From the NCBI RefSeq assembly GCF_001050155.1, contig NZ_LFVY01000004.1, positions 248,001 to 312,000 of the forward strand: a stretch of DNA of 64,000 nt, read 5' to 3'. The notes under the pieces were generated by a model. It saw only the letters and a program-made list of their open reading frames with translations, ran no database searches and was not told the origin of the DNA. Positions 25,079 through 55,903 of the stretch are shown here, one piece after another; positions within the stretch are counted from its first letter, which is position 1; each line of letters starts with the position of its first letter. This stretch comes from Nitratireductor soli. Lineage in GTDB: Bacteria > Pseudomonadota > Alphaproteobacteria > Rhizobiales > Rhizobiaceae. The position numbers were made by a program, and so were the translations under genes.

Positions 25079-25221
25079 GAAATTCTCCTTGGTTCATGCT
25101 TTGTTCTTATCATATTGGTGGAGAATCGCAAGACGGAACCAGCCGTTTGCGTCACGATCGATCGACGAAGCAATGTTGTGCCCGGATGACTGGCCTTGCA
25201 TATTTCCCTTTGCAGCGGGCT

Positions 25222-38745: not shown

Positions 38746-38952
38746 TTCCCCTTCACTCCCCTGCCTTCATCATAACATAGGCATTGCGCGTCGGTGCACC
38801 CCCATCTGCTTAATGCAAGAAGATTGCCACCAGCACGGCGAGGCAGTCAAGGATTTTGTTCCTATTTTGTTCTCCCCGCCGATTGTGCTTGATTGATCAT
38901 GATGCCTGGGCATAGGCTTTGTAACGGGCAATGTTTCGGGGAAGAGCAGACG

Positions 38953-39609
38953 ATGGGGTTTTTCACACGCGATTGCGTTCGATGCGGAGTGAAGGGCGTG
39001 CAGATGCGCTCAGCCGGCTGCTCTTTTTACGATGGATTGAACGCCGAATTGCAAATGGTTTGCTCGGCCTGTGATCGGTCAAGCCTTTATGAAGGACAGC
39101 CTAACTTCGACATTGAACAAGCGGTCGATTTTGATAAGCGAGGCCGGTATTTTAGCCGAACGCCGATTTTCGTCGTTCCTAGCCCACCAAACATTTCTAC
39201 TGACATTCCGGTGCGAATTGCCGATCTGTTTCGCGAAGCCTCTAAGGCTCGCCGAATGAACCTCTTTGAAGCGGCTGGAGCGATGTTTCGTAAGACAGTC
39301 GACGTTGCAACCAAACATATCTATGCGACCGATTCTCGTCTTCAGGGAAAGAACCCAGCCGATGCGCCACGCTCTAGAATCCGTGCTCTGGGCGAGATGA
39401 GGATTCTGGATGCCGATATAGTGGAACTGGCGGATGTGGCCGTTCTCGACGGCAACGACGCCGCTCATGATGTTGATCCATACACAGCCGAGGAAGCCGA
39501 AGCACTGGAAGATTTAACTACCGATCTCCTTGATCGGTTATTTATGCGGCCAGCGAAATTGGCGGCTGTTAAGGCGAAGCAGATAGCTGCCGGACAACGG
39601 AAAGCATAG
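38953..39609 (+). CDS. DUF4145 domain protein with N-terminal zinc-ribbon-like cysteines
   Basis: The 218-residue protein has CVRCG near residue 8 and CSACD near residue 38, a likely zinc ribbon. A DUF4145-like helical segment follows (IADLFREASKARRMNLFEAAGAMFRKTVDVATKHI, then LAD with NDAAHDVDPYTAEEAEALEDL). DUF4145 is found alone and fused to restriction or defence proteins; a HEPN-like role is only a possibility. Base composition is visibly lower in G+C than flanking core genes. The ATG at 38953 follows GGGGAAGAG. Confidence 0.75.
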   Translation: MGFFTRDCVRCGVKGVQMRSAGCSFYDGLNAELQMVCSACDRSSLYEGQPNFDIEQAVDFDKRGRYFSRTPIFVVPSPPNISTDIPVRIADLFREASKARRMNLFEAAGAMFRKTVDVATKHIYATDSRLQGKNPADAPRSRIRALGEMRILDADIVELADVAVLDGNDAAHDVDPYTAEEAEALEDLTTDLLDRLFMRPAKLAAVKAKQIAAGQRKA

Positions 39610-47958: not shown

Positions 47959-50900
47959 TCAGTGAAAATTCCGCCCCTTCGGCAAGACGCGCACATCGCG
48001 CGGGTGACGCCACAGGCTCTGTGTCGTTGTCGCCTGCGCCTCGGCTTTCGCCTGCGCGTCGGGGGCGGTCATGGCGTCCATCAGCTCGGGTGAAAGATCG
48101 ATCAGCCGGCGGGCGATCACATGAATCACCTCGCGTTCCTTCTGCAGAACGCCCTCCACGGCGACCATGCGCGCGCCGAACACGACGCGGCGGTGTTTTT
48201 CGAAGACGCGCGGCCAGACGATGGCGTTGGCAATGCCCGTCTCGTCCTCCAGCGTCATGAAGATGACGCCGCTCGCCGTGCCCGGCCGCTGGCGGACGAG
48301 CACGAGGCCGGCGACACGGACGAAGCGGCCGGCGGGCGTGTCGACCAGCGTTCTGGTCTGCTGGATGCGCCGTTGCACCAGATGCTCGCGCAGAAAGGAG
48401 ACTGGGTGCGCCTTCAGCGACAGGCTGAGCGTGCCGTAATCCTCGACCACATGCTCGCCGGGCAGGAGGGCCGGCAGATCGACCGCCGGTTCTGCCTGCA
48501 GGGGAGGAGAAGCCGCCCGCTTTGCCTCGGAAAACAGCGGCAAATCCTCGGCGGCCGAACGTGTGCCCTGGTGCCCGCTGAGGCCGCGCACTTCCCACAG
48601 GGCGGCGCGCCGGTCGAGGCCGATGGAGCGGAAGGCGTCGGCCTCGGCCAGCCGGCGCAACGAGAACATGTCGATGCCGGCGCGGAAATAGAGGTCGCGC
48701 ACGCTGCCGAAACCCTGGCCGCGCGCGGCGAGGATTTTCAATGCCGCCTCCTCGCGGATGCCATCCACCTGGCGCAGGCCGAGCCGCAGCGCATGGCGTA
48801 TCGTGCCCGATGTGTCCGCCGGCTCCAGCACGTGATCCCAGAAGCTGTGATTGACGTCGACGGCGCGTGTCTCGCCGCCATGATCGCGGAAGTCGCGCAC
48901 GATGGAGGCGGCGGAATAAAAGCCCATGGGCTGCGAATTGAGCAATGCGCAGGCGAAGACGTCCGGATAATGGCATTTCAGCCAGGACGAGGCATAGGCG
49001 AGCAGCGCGAAGCTCGCCGAATGGCTCTCGGGGAAACCGTAGTCGCTAAAGCCCTCGATCTGCTTGAAACAACGCTCGGCGAAATCCCTGGCATAATTGT
49101 TGGCGAGCATGCCCTGGATGAAATCCTGGCGAAAATTGTCGATCGTGCCGGTGCGGCGGAAGGTGGCCATGGCGCGGCGCAGCTTGTCGGCCTTGGCCGG
49201 CGAAAAGCCGGCGCCGACGATGGCGATCTTCATCGCCTGCTCCTGGAACAGGGGAACGCCATAGGTTTTCTCCAGAACGGCGCGCAGTGCCTCCGACGGA
49301 TAATCGACATCTTCCTTCCCGTCGCGGCGGCGCAGGTAGGGATGCACCATGTCGCCCTGGATCGGCCCGGGGCGAACGATGGCGATCTCGATGACCAGGT
49401 CATAGAAATTATTCGGGCGCAGCCGCGGCAGCATCGACATCTGCGCCCGGCTTTCGATCTGGAAGACGCCGATCGTGTCGGCCTTCTGGATCATCCGATA
49501 GGTGGGGCGATCGTCGCGCGGCACGGTGGCGAGCGTGCGGTGTTCGCCATAATGATCGCGCAACAGGTCGAAGCTCTTGCGCAGACAGGTGAGCATGCCG
49601 AGCGACAGGACATCCACTTTGAGGATTTTCAGCGTGTCGAGGTCGTCCTTGTCCCATTCCACCATGGTGCGGTCGTCCATGGCGGCATTGACGATGGGCA
49701 CCATCTCGTCGAGCGGCCCGCGCGTCATGACGAAACCGCCCACATGCTGCGACAGGTGGCGGGGAAAGCCGATCAGCTGCTTCACCAGAAGCAGGGTCTG
49801 GCGCAGGCGCGGATCCGTCGGGTCGAGACCGGCTTCGCGGAGTTGCGCGCCTGCCGGCGTCTTTTCCGAATGGCCCCAGACGAGGCCGGTCATGGCGGCG
49901 ACGATGTCCGGCGACAGGCCCATTGCCTTGCCGGCCTCGCGCACGGCGCTGCGCGTGCGGTAGGAGATGACGGTGGCGGCAAGCCCGGCGCGGTGGCGGC
50001 CGTATTTGCCGTAGATGTACTGCATCACCTCTTCGCGCCGCTCATGCTCGAAATCGACGTCGATGTCCGGCGGCTCGCCGCGCTCGGCGGAAATGAAGCG
50101 CTCGAACAGGAGGTCGATCTCGGCCGGGTTGACCGAGGTGACGCCGAGGCAATAGCAGACGACGGAATTGGCTGCCGAACCGCGCCCCTGGCAGAGGATG
50201 GGCGGCTTCTGCGCGCGGGCGAAGCGCACGATGTCGTGCACGGTGAGGAAATAGGCGGCGTAGTTCAACGAAGCGATAAGCTGCAATTCATGGGCGATCA
50301 TGCCTTTGATCTTGTCGCTGAGCGCCGCGCCGAAGCGCTCTCGCGCGCCAAGCCAGGTGAGGCGGTCCAGCTCCTCCTGCGGCGTGGCGCTTTCACCGGC
50401 GGATTCCTCGGGATATTCGTAGGACAATTCATCGAGCGAGAAATGGCAGTCGTCCATCACCGCGGCCGAGCGCGCCACGGCATCCTCATGGCCGCGCAGC
50501 AGGCGGGCCATCTCCGCCGGGGGCTTCAGGTGCCGTTCGGCATTGCGCTCCAGGCGAAAGCCCGCTTCGTCGATGGTGCAGTGGGCGCGGATGCAGGTGA
50601 TGAGATCCTGCAGGGGACGGCGCGCCGGCGTGTGGTAGAGCACGTCGTTGGTGGCGATAAGCGGCGTGCCGCAGGCGATGGAAAGCGCATGAAGCCGACG
50701 CTGGCGCAGACCATCATTGGCGCGGCGATAGGGCGTGAGCGCCAGGAAGACCGATCCGGGAAAGAGGGCGGCGAGCCGGCGCAGGCCATCTTCGAAATCC
50801 GCGCCGAAATCATAAGGCGGCATGGCGATGAGACGCTGCCCGCCTTGCAGGAGCGCCAGGTCGTCGAAATGCAAATGACATTCGCCTTTCGGCGCGCGCC

Positions 50901-51201
50901 GGTTGCCGATGGTCAACATCCGTGTGAGGCGGCCATAGGCGGATTTGTCGGTGGGGAAGCACAGCGCCTCGAAACCGTCCATCAGCACCAGCCGGGCGCC
51001 GACGACAAGGCGAATCTTCTGCTCCTTCGCCTCCACATGCGCCCGCACCACGCCGGCCAGCGAGTTGCGGTCGGCAATGCCGATCGCCGCATGGCCAAGC
51101 TGGGCGGCCATGGCGACCAGCTCCTGCGGATGCGAGCCGCCGCGCAGGAAGCTGAAATTGCTGGTGACGCCGAGCTCGGCGAAGGGGGGAGCGTCGCTCA
51201 T
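47959..51201 (-). CDS. dnaE2: Error-prone DNA polymerase DnaE2 (ImuC)
   Basis: DnaE2 is the translesion C-family polymerase of the ImuA-ImuB-DnaE2 mutasome. The 1080-residue protein has an N-terminal PHP domain (VTSNFSFLRGGSHPQELV, later IGIADRNSLAGVVRAH), the polymerase palm with catalytic acids in EPPDIDVDFEHERREEVMQY (about residue 390), and CQGRGSAANSVVCYCLGVT. A C-terminal OB-fold follows (RVAGLVLVRQRPGTASGVIF). The family start SDAPPFAELGVTSNFSFL supports ATG 51201. Its start overlaps the imuB stop by 4 bases. It is the last gene of a LexA-type operon. Confidence 0.96.
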   Translation of the reverse strand: MSDAPPFAELGVTSNFSFLRGGSHPQELVAMAAQLGHAAIGIADRNSLAGVVRAHVEAKEQKIRLVVGARLVLMDGFEALCFPTDKSAYGRLTRMLTIGNRRAPKGECHLHFDDLALLQGGQRLIAMPPYDFGADFEDGLRRLAALFPGSVFLALTPYRRANDGLRQRRLHALSIACGTPLIATNDVLYHTPARRPLQDLITCIRAHCTIDEAGFRLERNAERHLKPPAEMARLLRGHEDAVARSAAVMDDCHFSLDELSYEYPEESAGESATPQEELDRLTWLGARERFGAALSDKIKGMIAHELQLIASLNYAAYFLTVHDIVRFARAQKPPILCQGRGSAANSVVCYCLGVTSVNPAEIDLLFERFISAERGEPPDIDVDFEHERREEVMQYIYGKYGRHRAGLAATVISYRTRSAVREAGKAMGLSPDIVAAMTGLVWGHSEKTPAGAQLREAGLDPTDPRLRQTLLLVKQLIGFPRHLSQHVGGFVMTRGPLDEMVPIVNAAMDDRTMVEWDKDDLDTLKILKVDVLSLGMLTCLRKSFDLLRDHYGEHRTLATVPRDDRPTYRMIQKADTIGVFQIESRAQMSMLPRLRPNNFYDLVIEIAIVRPGPIQGDMVHPYLRRRDGKEDVDYPSEALRAVLEKTYGVPLFQEQAMKIAIVGAGFSPAKADKLRRAMATFRRTGTIDNFRQDFIQGMLANNYARDFAERCFKQIEGFSDYGFPESHSASFALLAYASSWLKCHYPDVFACALLNSQPMGFYSAASIVRDFRDHGGETRAVDVNHSFWDHVLEPADTSGTIRHALRLGLRQVDGIREEAALKILAARGQGFGSVRDLYFRAGIDMFSLRRLAEADAFRSIGLDRRAALWEVRGLSGHQGTRSAAEDLPLFSEAKRAASPPLQAEPAVDLPALLPGEHVVEDYGTLSLSLKAHPVSFLREHLVQRRIQQTRTLVDTPAGRFVRVAGLVLVRQRPGTASGVIFMTLEDETGIANAIVWPRVFEKHRRVVFGARMVAVEGVLQKEREVIHVIARRLIDLSPELMDAMTAPDAQAKAEAQATTTQSLWRHPRDVRVLPKGRNFH

Positions 51202-52793
51202 GCGAACACACCATGGATGAACCAGCGCGGCACGTCTTCGCCGCGCTCGTAGAGCCCATCGCGAAACAGCCAGAAACGGCGACCCGCCTCATCCTCGATG
51301 CGATAATAGTCGCGCGTCTTGCGGCTCGCCCCGGCGGGCGCCAGCCACCATTCGGGTGCGATGCGCTCCGGCCCCTCGGCGCGCGCCACGCGATGCGCCA
51401 CGCGCCGCCATTCGAAGCGCGTCGGCGGGCCGTCCGGCACTTCGGCAAGCGTGGTGACGGGTTCCGGAACGGCAAACAGAAACAGCGGCCGGGCGAATGG
51501 AGCGCCATCCTGAACGACGCGTGCATGGGCGCGCCAATCGTGGCTTCTCATCGATTTGAGGACGGAGGCGGCGCGGGCGGCCCGCTCGGGAATGTAGCTC
51601 GCATAAGGCTGGGGCCGTGTCACATGGCGCGCACCGAAACGATTGACCAGGCGGTCGAGCAGGGGCGCGATGTCGCCGCGCGCACCGGCCAGCGCTTCAT
51701 CGCCCAGATCCTGTTGTCGCCCGGCCAGTTCCTCCACCTGCAAGGCGCTCAAACTGGCCGCCTCGAAGCCGAAGCCGGCATGGTCCTCGATACGGTCGAG
51801 CCGCTCGCCAAGCAGGCGGGCGAGATGGCGGGGATCGCGCGTGGCGGTGCTGGTGGCAAGCGGCAGCGCCTCGAACCAGCCATCGACACGGAACAGGCGC
51901 AACTCCACGCGCCGCGCGCCCTTGGCCGCGTGTTCGAGGTCGATTGCCAGGTCGCGCGTCAGCCGGTCGATGGCGACCTCGATCGCCTCGCGGGTGACGA
52001 TGGGCTCGGCGAAACGGCATGTGGCGGAATGCAGCACCGGCGGGCTGAGCGGGCCGAAACTTGCTTCCTCATGGCCAAGCGCCTCGTCCAGCCGGCGCAG
52101 GACAAAGGGGCCGAAGCGGGCGGCAAGCGGCGCACGCGGCTTGTCCAGAAGATCACCGATGCGCTTCAGGCCAAGCTTTTCGAGCGCCGAGAGGGTGGTC
52201 GCATCCAGGCAAAGGGCGGCAATGGGCAGCGGCGCCAGGCAGGCGCGCAAATCCTGGCGGGCAACGGCCAGGCGTGGACTGGCCGCATGGCGCGCCAGAC
52301 CCCAGGCAGCACCGATGGTCGGTGCAATAGCCAGTCGCGCCGTCAGGCCGAAGCCGCCAAGCCTTTCGGCCAGCATATCGAGGAGGCCGGCTTCACCACC
52401 GAACAGATGGGCACAGCCGGTGATGTCGAGGCTCACCCCATCGGGCGCGTCGACGCGGGTGAAGGGGGAATAGCACTGGCACCACAGCGCCAGTCGGACG
52501 AGCGACCGATGATCGCCGGCAAGATCCGCATGGCCCACTTTCAGGGTCGGGTGGATGGCGCGCGCATCGGCCAGCGCCATGCCGGGCAGGAAACCGAGCT
52601 GCTCGGCCGCCCGGTTGAGCGCGGTGATGTGCTGGCCGCTGTCCGAGGTGGTGACAAGCACCAGGGCTTCATCTTCACGAAGCTTCTGCCCATGAGGTGC
52701 CAGGGCGGTCATCAGGGCGGTTGTCAGCGCCATGCGCCCATGCCGGCGCTCGATCGGCCAGCGGGGCAGGAAGACGGAAAGAAAGCGTTTCAT
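51198..52793 (-). CDS. imuB: ImuB, inactive Y-family polymerase homologue
   Basis: ImuB bridges the sliding clamp, ImuA and DnaE2 and lacks polymerase activity. The 531-residue protein starts MKRFLSVFLPRWPIER, where the Y-family DxD metal site is absent. Other marks are ADARAIHPTL, VSLDITGCAHLFGGE (the usual SxDE is lost) and RIGDLLDKPRAPLAARFG. The C-terminal region includes the RxWWL-like PEWWLAPAGASRKTRDYYRIED. ATG 52793 matches the family; the open frame extends further up antisense to nothing but inside imuA. It overlaps imuA by 119 bases. Confidence 0.94.
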   Translation of the reverse strand: MKRFLSVFLPRWPIERRHGRMALTTALMTALAPHGQKLREDEALVLVTTSDSGQHITALNRAAEQLGFLPGMALADARAIHPTLKVGHADLAGDHRSLVRLALWCQCYSPFTRVDAPDGVSLDITGCAHLFGGEAGLLDMLAERLGGFGLTARLAIAPTIGAAWGLARHAASPRLAVARQDLRACLAPLPIAALCLDATTLSALEKLGLKRIGDLLDKPRAPLAARFGPFVLRRLDEALGHEEASFGPLSPPVLHSATCRFAEPIVTREAIEVAIDRLTRDLAIDLEHAAKGARRVELRLFRVDGWFEALPLATSTATRDPRHLARLLGERLDRIEDHAGFGFEAASLSALQVEELAGRQQDLGDEALAGARGDIAPLLDRLVNRFGARHVTRPQPYASYIPERAARAASVLKSMRSHDWRAHARVVQDGAPFARPLFLFAVPEPVTTLAEVPDGPPTRFEWRRVAHRVARAEGPERIAPEWWLAPAGASRKTRDYYRIEDEAGRRFWLFRDGLYERGEDVPRWFIHGVFA

Positions 52794-53532
52794 GATCCCA
52801 TTCGACATCCCATCCATCGGGCTGGTTGCTGAGCCAGCCGCCGGGCGTTCCTTTCTTGCATTTGGTGAGCTTGACCTGCCAGCGCGGCGCTCCCAATCCA
52901 AAACCCAGTCCAGGCCTTGCCCCCATTGCCGGGACTGGTGCGGGCAGGCTGGGCAGGGAGGCCACCGACCAGCGCGTTTCGGCCGCCGTCGACATGCCCG
53001 GATTTTCCCTGCCGCGGAAGATGAACGCGGTGACGCCTTGCCTGGCCGCGCGCATGGCAAGCCGCCGGCTGGCGGAAAAATCATAGTCATGCGCATTTTC
53101 CGGCAGGACGCCGACCACGGCGGCCAGAGGCGCATGCGCCAGCCCTTCCTCCAGCGCCCACAGGATGTCGATCGACTTGCGCGCCGCGATCTGGATCAGC
53201 CGGTCCGGATCGAAGCCGAGGGCGGCCAGCCCGAGCGGATAAAGTCCGCCCTCGCGAAACCCCAGATGCGCCGGGGCAGCCCAGAGAATCTGGCCCGGCC
53301 GGCTGCGGGCGATGCGCGCCAGAAGGCAAAAGCCGAAGCCGATGCCGGCGGCGAAATCACCATGGGTCGCCGGCACCAGCTCGTGCAGCGCACCCGTTGC
53401 CAGCCCATGCTCGGGCAGGGCCGCATCGAGCGCTGCCGGCCCGAGAGCGACCGCCGGCCGCTTGATCGGTGTCAGGCGCTCCTGGGCGGCAATGCGCCGC
53501 CGCAGAATTTCGATGTCAAAGGCGTGACTCAT
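52675..53532 (-). CDS. imuA: ImuA, RecA-like mutasome accessory protein
   Basis: ImuA is a RecA/SulA-related protein that supports DnaE2-dependent mutagenesis. The 285-residue protein matches the family at GLATGALHELVPATHGDFAAG, at ARKSIDILWALEEGL, and at the C-terminal KLTKCKKGTPGGW...VEWDHETLSFRLP followed by APLADRAPA. An additional SNQPDGWDV stretch sits between W and the EWDHET motif compared with the form I remember. The last 119 bases overlap the imuB start in another frame. The gene upstream ends 21 bases before it. Confidence 0.93.
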   Translation of the reverse strand: MSHAFDIEILRRRIAAQERLTPIKRPAVALGPAALDAALPEHGLATGALHELVPATHGDFAAGIGFGFCLLARIARSRPGQILWAAPAHLGFREGGLYPLGLAALGFDPDRLIQIAARKSIDILWALEEGLAHAPLAAVVGVLPENAHDYDFSASRRLAMRAARQGVTAFIFRGRENPGMSTAAETRWSVASLPSLPAPVPAMGARPGLGFGLGAPRWQVKLTKCKKGTPGGWLSNQPDGWDVEWDHETLSFRLPAPLADRAPAWAHGADNRPDDRPGTSWAEAS

Positions 53533-53553
53533 AACGCAAACCCGGTCCGCACA

Positions 53554-54438
53554 TCATGACGGAAGGGCGGGCGCGGATAACGGGCGCGCGCCTGCCATGC
53601 CATAGTCATGGATATCGGGAATTTTCTCCGATCGTCTGTTTTCACTGTTTTTATTCAGATTTAATGGCAATGCTTGCGCGCGCGGCGAGGCAGTCAGCCA
53701 ATCTTCAAGGCGCCGTTCTTTTTGCTCTGGCGACGTGCCGGCTCCGGCCTGGGCGCAAACGGCCTGAAACGGGCACGACGCGGAAGGACCTTTGGCGCAA
53801 AACTGTCTGCCGAGCTGTTGCATCAGCACGTGATGATCTTCCATGTCGGCCGCGCCCCAGGCGTCCGGCGCCTGCCGGTTGAGCAGCCGCACCGCACGCT
53901 CCAGCCCGGTCCGGGCGGGCAGCAGGCCGAGGCAACGGGCCGCACGCCAATGGGCCGTGTCGACGACAAGGATGCGTTTTTGCAGCGTGCTGAGATTGAG
54001 CGTGGCGGTGCTGGTCTTGGGGCCGACGCCATACAGACGCTCAAGCCAGGCAAGCGCCGGCTCGACCGGCCAGGGTTTTAGGAAATCGAGCGTCAGTTCA
54101 CCGCGCAGGCCGAGGATTTCCTGCAAGGCCCTGGGTAGGGCGACGGCCTTGCGCTCCGCATGGGTGATGTCGTCAAGCAGCGGGTCGATCTCATGGAACG
54201 AGGCATTGGCCAATCCTGTCCAGCGGCCATGGTGCTTCACCACTTCGAAATGCTGCACCAGCAGGCTAAAGACACCCAGGGCGATGTCGCTGCGCGTCCT
54301 GGCGCTGAGGATCGCCAGGATCATCTGGCTCACCGGATCAAGGCGATGACAGGCCGGCGGCGGGCCAAACGCTCCCAGCAAGCGCTGGTGCAGGCGCGCA
54401 AGCCGGTTGAACGACGCAAGGGGCAGGGTGTATTGCAT
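53554..54438 (-). CDS. Endonuclease III-like HhH-GPD DNA glycosylase heading the SOS mutasome operon
   Basis: The 294-residue protein has the Nth/HhH-GPD fold: DPVSQMILAILSARTRSD (about 35-51), the helix-hairpin-helix LYGVGPKTSTATLNL with a lysine at 141 corresponding to the lyase lysine of Nth, and the catalytic aspartate D160 in VVDTAHWRA. The C-terminal cluster region has only three cysteines (C214, C222, C228; C-x7-C-x5-C) instead of the CX6CX2CX5C set, so the iron-sulfur cluster may be missing or altered. A tail of about 60 residues has no recognised fold. The gene lies directly downstream of a LexA box and promoter and 21 bases before imuA. The damaged base recognised is unknown. Confidence 0.85.
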   Translation of the reverse strand: MQYTLPLASFNRLARLHQRLLGAFGPPPACHRLDPVSQMILAILSARTRSDIALGVFSLLVQHFEVVKHHGRWTGLANASFHEIDPLLDDITHAERKAVALPRALQEILGLRGELTLDFLKPWPVEPALAWLERLYGVGPKTSTATLNLSTLQKRILVVDTAHWRAARCLGLLPARTGLERAVRLLNRQAPDAWGAADMEDHHVLMQQLGRQFCAKGPSASCPFQAVCAQAGAGTSPEQKERRLEDWLTASPRAQALPLNLNKNSENRRSEKIPDIHDYGMAGARPLSAPALPS

Positions 54439-54443
54439 GCCCC

Positions 54444-54472
54444 ATGATAGGAACAAAAAGGGAACAAATCAA
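54444..54472 (-). promoter_or_regulatory. SOS promoter with LexA box
   Basis: On the minus strand TTGATT (-35) and TATCAT (-10, five of six consensus bases) are 17 bases apart. The spacer holds GTTCCCTTTTTGTTC (54451-54465), a perfect GTTC-N7-GTTC alphaproteobacterial LexA box. LexA would block this promoter directly. The predicted transcription start falls at or next to the glycosylase ATG (54438), so the mRNA would be leaderless. Confidence 0.88.
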
Positions 54473-54510
54473 TCGTTTTGCGCGATGCGAATCCATCCAT
54501 CCCGCCAAAT

Positions 54511-54577
54511 GCAAAGGCCGCCAGACAGATTTCGCTCGCCTTTTTCAAGGTGGCGAAATCTGCTGGCGGCCTTTTGC
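54511..54577. repeat. 25-bp imperfect inverted repeat upstream of the SOS promoter
   Basis: GCAAAGGCCGCCAGACAGAT plus TTCGC (54511-54535) is complementary to 54553-54577 with few mismatches and a 17-base loop containing CCTTTTTC. A second small hairpin (CAGCGT/ACGCTT) follows. There is no long T-run. The rest of the 54457-54823 gap has no gene that I can support. Confidence 0.7.
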
Positions 54578-54823
54578 AGCGTTCTGCCGACGCTTTGCAA
54601 AGAGTCCCCTCTGGACCCGAACGATACGAAGCATCAATCGTGCCAGACGGCGAGTTCCTGCTTTAAGGTATTATATTCAAAGGCTTGCGTTCTCACGGGA
54701 TGATTCGGTTCGATGCCGGGGCCAGGGCCACTGGCCAAACGAAAAGCACCATGCCTGCGATTTACGCAGGGCCGGTTACACAGGGCCTGGCGGAAATCCT
54801 GCCAGTATAGTGACGGGGTATCT

Positions 54824-55903
54824 TCAGATGGCCACTTCCACCCGGTTGCGGCCCGCTGCCCGCGCCTGGTTGAGAGCGGTGTCGGCCTGCCCGAGCGCCG
54901 TCCAGAACCCTTCCTTGCGCGGCAAGGGTGTGTGGAGACCGACGCTGACCGTCAAGGGCAGGGTGGTGCCATCGATCGAGAACGGTGCCTCGGCCACCGC
55001 CCGCTGCACGCGCTCGGCAAGGCCGAACGCCCGCTCCGCGTCATAGGCAGGAAGAACAAGCGCAATGGCCTGCCCGCCGAAGCTCGCCACCATGTCCGTC
55101 TGCCTGACATTGGCCTGGACGACCGCCGCGACGTGGCGCAGCGCCTGTTCGCCGACCGTGCGTCCATGGCTGTCGAGAAGGCTGTCGAAGGCGTCGATGT
55201 CGATGACCGCCATCGAATAGGGCTGGCCGGCCCAATTCATCGCTTCGGCCAGTTCCGGCCCCAGCTTGTCGAAAACCCGCCGGTTCAGAAGACCCGTCAG
55301 CGGGTCGGTCGCCGCCTCCGAGGCGCGGGTTTCGCGGGTTCGAAACCGGGTTCGCTGCACCTCAAGCATCTGCCCGACCAGCACCGTGCAGACAGCCACG
55401 GCAAGCGTTGCCGGCAGCATGACGGCGCGGGCGGCGTTCAGCGTGGTCTGCAGGGGCAGAAGGAGGATGACCATCAGCGCCACGGTGGACAGCAGGCCGG
55501 CGACAACCAGCATGCCGAGCGAGATTGCCCGGCCTTTGGCGACACGGGCAAAGACAAAGCCGATGATTGCGCACAGAACGACGCCGAGAAGGCCGCTCGC
55601 ATCGCCGAGCCAGAAGCGGCCGGCCGCCGCCACGAGAATGGTGGAGATCGCTGTCCACCAGCCGCCATAGGCCATGGCCAGCACGACGAACACGTTTCCA
55701 ACCCCGAAGGGCAGGCCCGCTGCCGCTGTAGCCGACAGAAACATGGGGGCGACACTGGCGGCGGAAAAAAGCGTCGCCATCAGGATTCTTTTCTGCGCCG
55801 CCGAAGCCGGCCGCTGCAGCAGACCTCCGTAAAGCAGGGCCGCAATGGCAGCTATGCCCAGACCCGTCAGGAAATGGGACGCCACGGCAATCATGCTCAT
55901 CAA
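54824..55903 (-). CDS. Membrane protein with degenerate GGDEF domain
   Basis: The 359-residue protein has about six hydrophobic segments (residues 5-185), a short linker (VQRTRFRTRETRASEAATDP) and a GGDEF-fold domain (about 200-355, starting DPLTGLLNRRVFD). The metal aspartate region (VIDIDAFD) is kept, but the signature is ASFGGQAIALVL, so GGDEF reads GGQAI and cyclase activity is unlikely. It may act as a receptor or regulatory partner. It is divergent from the intact GGDEF gene across the inverted-repeat element. Confidence 0.85.
   Translation of the reverse strand: MMSMIAVASHFLTGLGIAAIAALLYGGLLQRPASAAQKRILMATLFSAASVAPMFLSATAAAGLPFGVGNVFVVLAMAYGGWWTAISTILVAAAGRFWLGDASGLLGVVLCAIIGFVFARVAKGRAISLGMLVVAGLLSTVALMVILLLPLQTTLNAARAVMLPATLAVAVCTVLVGQMLEVQRTRFRTRETRASEAATDPLTGLLNRRVFDKLGPELAEAMNWAGQPYSMAVIDIDAFDSLLDSHGRTVGEQALRHVAAVVQANVRQTDMVASFGGQAIALVLPAYDAERAFGLAERVQRAVAEAPFSIDGTTLPLTVSVGLHTPLPRKEGFWTALGQADTALNQARAAGRNRVEVAI

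Follow-up and report, generated by a model that had tools for sequence, protein, structure and literature searches.

In many bacteria, the ImuA-ImuB-DnaE2 mutasome is one of the main sources of damage-induced mutation. Its genes make up the imuABC SOS cassette, and the DNA analyzed here, a 64,000-nucleotide stretch of a Nitratireductor soli contig (hereafter the window), carries the same three genes in the same order, with a LexA box in front and with the gene overlaps of that cassette. It differs from the described cassette in that a DNA glycosylase gene (gly) comes first in the operon, and the single LexA box stands before it. Partner genes reported in the accessible text of the sources, among them a gene-neighbourhood study of SOS operons (PMC3765255), are lexA, ImuB-C, DUF159/SRAP, SplB-like, Ku, and ligase genes. 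Uracil-DNA glycosylases of COG1573 are known to be under LexA/SOS control, according to the available portion of the report (PMC8565304); they resemble the gly product in being LexA-controlled base-excision enzymes, but belong to another protein family and are paired with COG4277, not imuA. A search of the literature accessible without subscription found no description of a glycosylase heading imuABC, and within that scope it agrees with an earlier sequence-only reading of the locus, which had known of none.

In the window, the gene order on the minus strand is gly-imuA-imuB-dnaE2. The gly gene (53554-54438) encodes 294 amino acids from its ATG, an EndoIII-like HhH-GPD DNA glycosylase, and is separated by a 21-nt gap from imuA (52675-53532), which was identified by an NF033429 match (E 3.4e-14) below that family's cut-off together with gene order. 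An overlap of 119 nt joins imuA to imuB (51198-52793, with the start taken as MKRFLS; a longer ORF, 51198-53135, starts further upstream), whose IMS and IMS_C domains score over their cut-offs, and an overlap of 4 nt joins imuB to dnaE2 (imuC; 47959-51201), encoding an error-prone DNA polymerase (NF004225, 1377 bits against a cut-off of 939). Genes imuA, imuB, and dnaE2 are adjacent and overlapping, as in an imuABC cassette. Upstream of the cassette on the same strand lies a GGDEF (diguanylate cyclase) gene (54824-55903), which adjoins the cassette in all genus loci reaching that far.

A sigma-70-like promoter, TTGATT-N17-TATCAT (54444..54472, minus strand), precedes gly; it is a pattern match that is kept in relatives, and its spacer holds the LexA box GTTCCCTTTTTGTTC (54451-54465), 12 nt 5' of the gly ATG. 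We take GTTC-N7-GTTC to be the LexA box of the alphaproteobacterial type, and a box of this form at the gly promoter places gly among putative members of the LexA regulon. The promoter (54472-54444) was the only sigma-70-like match in 53400-54900, where 0.2 were expected, and neither in the window nor in the fetched genus loci was another LexA box found between gly and imuA. The sequence-only reading had described both the array, with its 21-base gap and 119- and 4-base overlaps, and a promoter-like signal with a LexA box in front of gly only; we recovered the same gap, the same overlaps, and the same single signal. One box by itself is weak evidence, since GAAC-N7-GAAC occurs 5 times in the window against 1.47 expected from shuffles; its position before gly is conserved across loci, and TTGATTTGTTC is retained in 9/9 genus loci having the 5' end. 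The E. coli-type pattern GAACN4GTTC is not enriched in the genome (89 occurrences vs 119 for the reversed control). Only 5 nt separate the −10 element from the gly ATG at 54438, so transcription would be expected to start at or beside this ATG, and the gly-led mRNA is probably leaderless.

Elsewhere in the window, a LexA-type box (38858-38872) lies 20 nt before a DUF4145 ORF (38893-39609, plus strand), which is a possible SOS-controlled gene, and one more GTTC-N7-GTTC match, assigned to no gene, occurs at 25092-25106.

A Pfam search of the window gly returned no family, the PF00730 (HhH-GPD) cut-off not being reached, and the assignment therefore depends on weak NCBIfam matches plus PDB sequence and fold matches. 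These support the glycosylase identity proposed earlier. The AlphaFold model (mean pLDDT 87.8) has the HhH-GPD fold, with a low-confidence tail from about residue 250. At E ≤ 0.001 the PDB gave 103 matches, and the 50 listed comprise EndoIII, NTHL1, MutY/MUTYH, OGG1, ROS1, and a thymine-DNA glycosylase. The nearest is D. radiodurans EndoIII-1 (DR2438; 4unf, 8a5f, 8a5c), at 27–28% identity; in the family model of that enzyme, NF053634 (MonDNAglycDR2438), the gly product scores 56.9 bits against a cut-off of 400. EndoIII-1 shares the Lys, Asp, and Arg of the window gly; its Arg61 corresponds to window R47, where the Gln of the R61Q chain 8a5f aligns exactly. In the accessible part of the structural report, EndoIII-1 is a mostly monofunctional glycosylase that can process single-stranded DNA and is weakened by the Arg61 to Gln change (PMC9268735). 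We hold, with good confidence as to enzyme class, that the gly product is a divergent endonuclease III-type DNA glycosylase.

The gly product does not fit a simple Nth or MutY. For the MutY equivalog TIGR01084 it scores 20.3 bits against a cut-off of 286.5; for the Nth equivalog TIGR01083 (cut-off 211.7 bits) it is not among the matches listed, and seven relatives score 48–62 bits. The genome has three other PF00730 genes, read by eye as Nth, MutY, and AlkA-like, of which L135 is the closer Nth as read from its sequence, and gly is therefore an extra enzyme. A phage or plasmid origin was also set aside: no phage match was found at 1e-5, and the four plasmid matches are all under 35% identity.

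Catalytic Lys K141 and Asp D160, noted as present by the sequence-only reading, are invariant in 63/63 rows of our alignment (A3), and position 47 is Arg in 53 rows and Lys in 10. Eighteen of the 80 loci are left out of A3 (13 fragments, sister-clade members, or loci with unsure starts, and five near copies: L109, L122, L126, L128, and L134). As the start of gly we chose an ATG, GTG, or TTG standing directly before CAA or CAG, so M1-Q2, although invariant in A3, reflects this choice and is not a result. The rows linked to imu genes carry Ala162 and His163 (DTAH) in 9/9 cases, whereas His162 (DxH) is found in 54/54 others, a difference that the tree traces to a single event. Of the four Fe-S cysteines usually found, the window gly has three (C214, C222, C228), as do the six other Nitratireductor rows of A3, whereas Marinicaulis, Stappia, and eight other A3 rows printed have four; the four-cysteine loop is a feature of many, not all, EndoIII/HhH-GPD members. 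With a missing Fe-S cysteine and DTAH in place of DxH, the activity could differ from that of known EndoIII. The glycosylase domain is under purifying selection (dN/dS 0.12–0.23 over 28 genus pairs) and the tail much less so (0.26–0.97 over 27 pairs, with one pair undefined).

The earlier reading had asked how often gly orthologues lie directly upstream of imuA, and the linkage is conserved in related genomes. The window gly is 76% identical to the glycosylase of Nitratireductor pacificus; imuA is present in 10/10 Nitratireductor genomes searched, and gly stands directly before it in 9/10. In one genome (G009) gly is split over two contig ends, and in another (G004) the contig ends inside imuA. 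Within Stappiaceae, gly occurs in 6/87 genomes, all six of which have the LexA box and imuA directly behind gly, the gly stop and the inferred imuA start overlapping as ATGA (6/6). A full gly-imuA-imuB-dnaE2 set was also found in a Marinicaulis MAG (L061). In the gly tree (80 loci, without L063, L127, L133, and L066 and without the Caulobacteraceae row L214, whose start was not located), all 14 linked rows group in a single clade (100/98); in the ImuB tree (30 loci, from the imuB loci of 47 genomes), so do the nine linked rows (100/100), although they represent three families, Phyllobacteriaceae, Stappiaceae, and Parvularculaceae. No other gly-bearing genome searched has an ImuB more than 48% identical to that of the window. 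The two trees agree, and by their topology the block is a unit of inheritance or transfer. On sequence evidence, the gly-headed imuABC cassette is real and conserved.

The tenth genus genome (G003) gave no glycosylase match; since the ImuB tree places the G003 protein among those of the genus, this is a loss. A relict (L165:1126-1384) keeps the promoter with TTGATTTGTTC and the LexA box, followed in frame by an ORF of 76 codons that is similar to the N-terminal start and the C-terminal tail of gly and whose stop overlaps the imuA ATG. If imuA depends on the gly promoter, retention of promoter, box, start, and frame would be expected. G003 also has a second, divergent imuA-imuB pair (L170), for which a separate LexA box lies no more than about 75 nt from the imuA match. 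In G167, from another genus of the window's family, ImuB is 61% identical to that of the window and no glycosylase was found, a state that may be either a loss or ancestral. Its imuA (L265:2182-3087) starts ATGCAA 12 nt behind a LexA box, which looks like the gly promoter and first codons set in front of imuA.

A second joining is seen in Caulobacteraceae. Genome G668, of the Phenylobacterium locus family, has a single 520-aa glycosylase-ImuA ORF (L208:1456-3018, plus strand; also L266:1566-3128, plus strand); a LexA box precedes it by 38 nt, and imuB and dnaE2 follow it. Its NF053634 match (17-226) marks the glycosylase part and its NF033429 match (340-433) the ImuA part, and it reaches PF00730 with 43.9 bits against a cut-off of 26.2. 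This was the only full-length fusion match among 390 Caulobacteraceae genomes searched. ImuA, ImuB, and DnaE2 were found beside gly in 0/7 further Caulobacteraceae loci, four of them loci whose match ran well past the glycosylase part; the LexA box is present there. In the gly tree, the glycosylase part of this fusion falls among the Caulobacteraceae rows, outside the linked clade (83/88, on a long branch), and judging from this placement gly has been joined to mutasome genes at least twice, independently. In Rhodobacter sp. SGA-6-6 (L110), gly and an imuA-imuB-dnaE2 operon are convergent neighbours. Overall, imu genes lie within the fetched flanks (up to 6 kb) at 10/80 gly loci, nine of them in the linked clade.

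Outside the linked clade, gly appears as a widespread LexA-box gene, usually standing alone, in the predicted LexA regulon of many alphaproteobacteria. An exact box lies 27–42 nt before the chosen gly start at 64/80 loci (48 at −27 or −28). Chance was rejected as its source, since the background in gly loci is 28 boxes in 925,116 positions, or 0.0015 per 49-nt window, and a box turns up within 60 nt for only 13 of the 1,423 other ATG-ORFs that reach 150 aa. The 16 loci without an exact box are a fragment without a start (L063), five loci of a sister clade, and ten others, of which L096 and L101 have a one-mismatch box. The sister clade (L092, L094, L095, L097, and L106, with no box) was not counted as part of the family but was kept in the denominator of 80; L034-L039 also belong to it, as judged by eye.

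Caulobacteraceae have the box in the right orientation at 54/56 gly loci, which by genome is 47/49, or 52/54 with five further genomes; the two exceptions are partial matches, L228 with no box and L227 with an opposite-orientation match only. Four Erythrobacteraceae loci (L102, L111, L112, and L120) have gly without a box. In Qipengyuania citrea (NZ_CP098495.1), the gly match falls under endonuclease III and guaA annotations, and gly there may be read from guaA. Two Inquilinus loci (L087, L091) also have gly without a LexA box; both genomes have no ImuB match and, with the Hyphomicrobiales MAG L067, where the box is present, they make up the 3/50 gly-bearing genomes in this state.

An imuB locus was fetched for 28/45 other gly-bearing genomes that have ImuB, and 26 of these 28 have a separate box near imuA, between −147 and +67 of its estimated start; L173 has no box, and in L175 imuA was not placed. 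In the linked clade the box stands before gly, not imuA, and its distance to the estimated imuA start is 725 nt in L171 and 734 nt in L172. In Stappia L062 a second box match, in opposite orientation, lies just before the imuB start. Class-wide, ImuB occurs in 128/289 genomes and in 8/8 with a strong gly match (hypergeometric 0.0013, with genome size as a confounder); the LexA box is absent from the fetched gly locus in four of those eight. Co-occurrence is weak evidence in the window's family, since ImuB is found in 267/297 of its genomes anyway.

A family member has probably been described in Caulobacter. In the accessible text of one study, ccna_02355 is an early SOS gene with the LexA box GTTCttgttatGTTC and is induced by mitomycin C (PMC12700426), and CC2272 is listed as a second nth in the available part of another (PMC1839093). 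The same 15 bases as in the ccna_02355 box stand before gly at 2/28 Caulobacteraceae loci (L208, L218). We take ccna_02355 and CC2272 to be the same gene by locus-number offset, and ccna_02355 is probably the gly orthologue.

It is very likely, from operon order, box position, and conservation as read in these genomes, that in the cassette of Nitratireductor, Stappiaceae, and Marinicaulis a single LexA-box promoter before gly also serves imuA-imuB-dnaE2. Co-transcription of gly and imuA and their induction by damage would follow this course: RecA would trigger LexA cleavage, and gly and ImuA-ImuB-DnaE2 would be made together. The invariant catalytic residues, the selection on the domain, and the ImuA fusion count further in favour of the account, in which gly would most likely be the repair arm of bypass. 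Its presumed substrates would be damaged or mis-inserted bases, excised where ImuA-ImuB-DnaE2 operates, in gaps and at stalled forks, and this would lower the load and the error cost of bypass. We judge this full account, in which one promoter co-produces gly and its putative mutasome partner and gly repairs alongside bypass, to have about an even chance of being right. A closer association is also conceivable, in which gly, a fourth mutasome subunit docked on ImuA, would act beside DnaE2 where the template is single-stranded or gapped, and would either edit DnaE2 errors and template lesions or turn lesions into abasic sites for bypass. Docking is proposed because the natural fusion suggests contact; we regard this version as unlikely, and if true it would physically unite base excision with translesion synthesis.

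The repair-arm account has to be set against the possibility that gly is just another SOS repair enzyme, functionally unconnected to the mutasome, which a rearrangement placed between a LexA promoter and imuA and which then spread with the block as one. Most family members stand alone behind a promoter of this type, the linked rows fall in a single clade, and the imu genes stay despite the loss of gly in G003 or its absence in G167; this solo majority and the losses argue for an enzyme that has a use of its own and that bypass can do without. Such convenience of regulation sits less well with a separate second joining, in which a gly-ImuA fusion, itself an argument for a physical tie, heads imuB-dnaE2, with the convergent neighbours in Rhodobacter sp. 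SGA-6-6, and with the restriction of DTAH to the linked rows, although the latter is one tree event. We consider it possible, with our judgement leaning against it.

The common promoter and the fusion to ImuA would also suit a pro-mutagenic partner, in which gly makes abasic sites, DnaE2 bypasses them, and mutagenesis rises. The nearest solved relative, in the accessible part of its description, is mostly monofunctional and acts on single-stranded DNA (PMC9268735), so that AP sites rather than nicks would be left; but the Lys of bifunctional enzymes is invariant in gly, and the glycosylase domain can be lost with the imu genes staying (G003). We judge this alternative improbable. Least probable of all, to the point of being hardly credible, is a catalytically dead gly serving only as a translated leader for imuA. 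The G003 relict ORF does keep frame up to imuA, an Fe-S cysteine is absent from the Nitratireductor copies, and constraint on the tail is weak, but the domain is conserved at low dN/dS with invariant catalytic Lys and Asp. In the available text on DrEndoIII2, moreover, the single Fe-S cysteine variant C199S has mixed 3Fe-4S/4Fe-4S clusters and is less stable, yet still active (PMC9268735).

The imuABC cassette itself is already known, and gly at its head is a new arrangement. By sharing a promoter with the mutasome and being fused to ImuA in one species, gly becomes a named, testable partner of it. The arrangement suggests that one SOS switch can set both base excision and error-prone bypass. 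In many alphaproteobacteria, the wider gly family is conserved as a gene with a LexA box, and the tractable Caulobacter is probably one of them.
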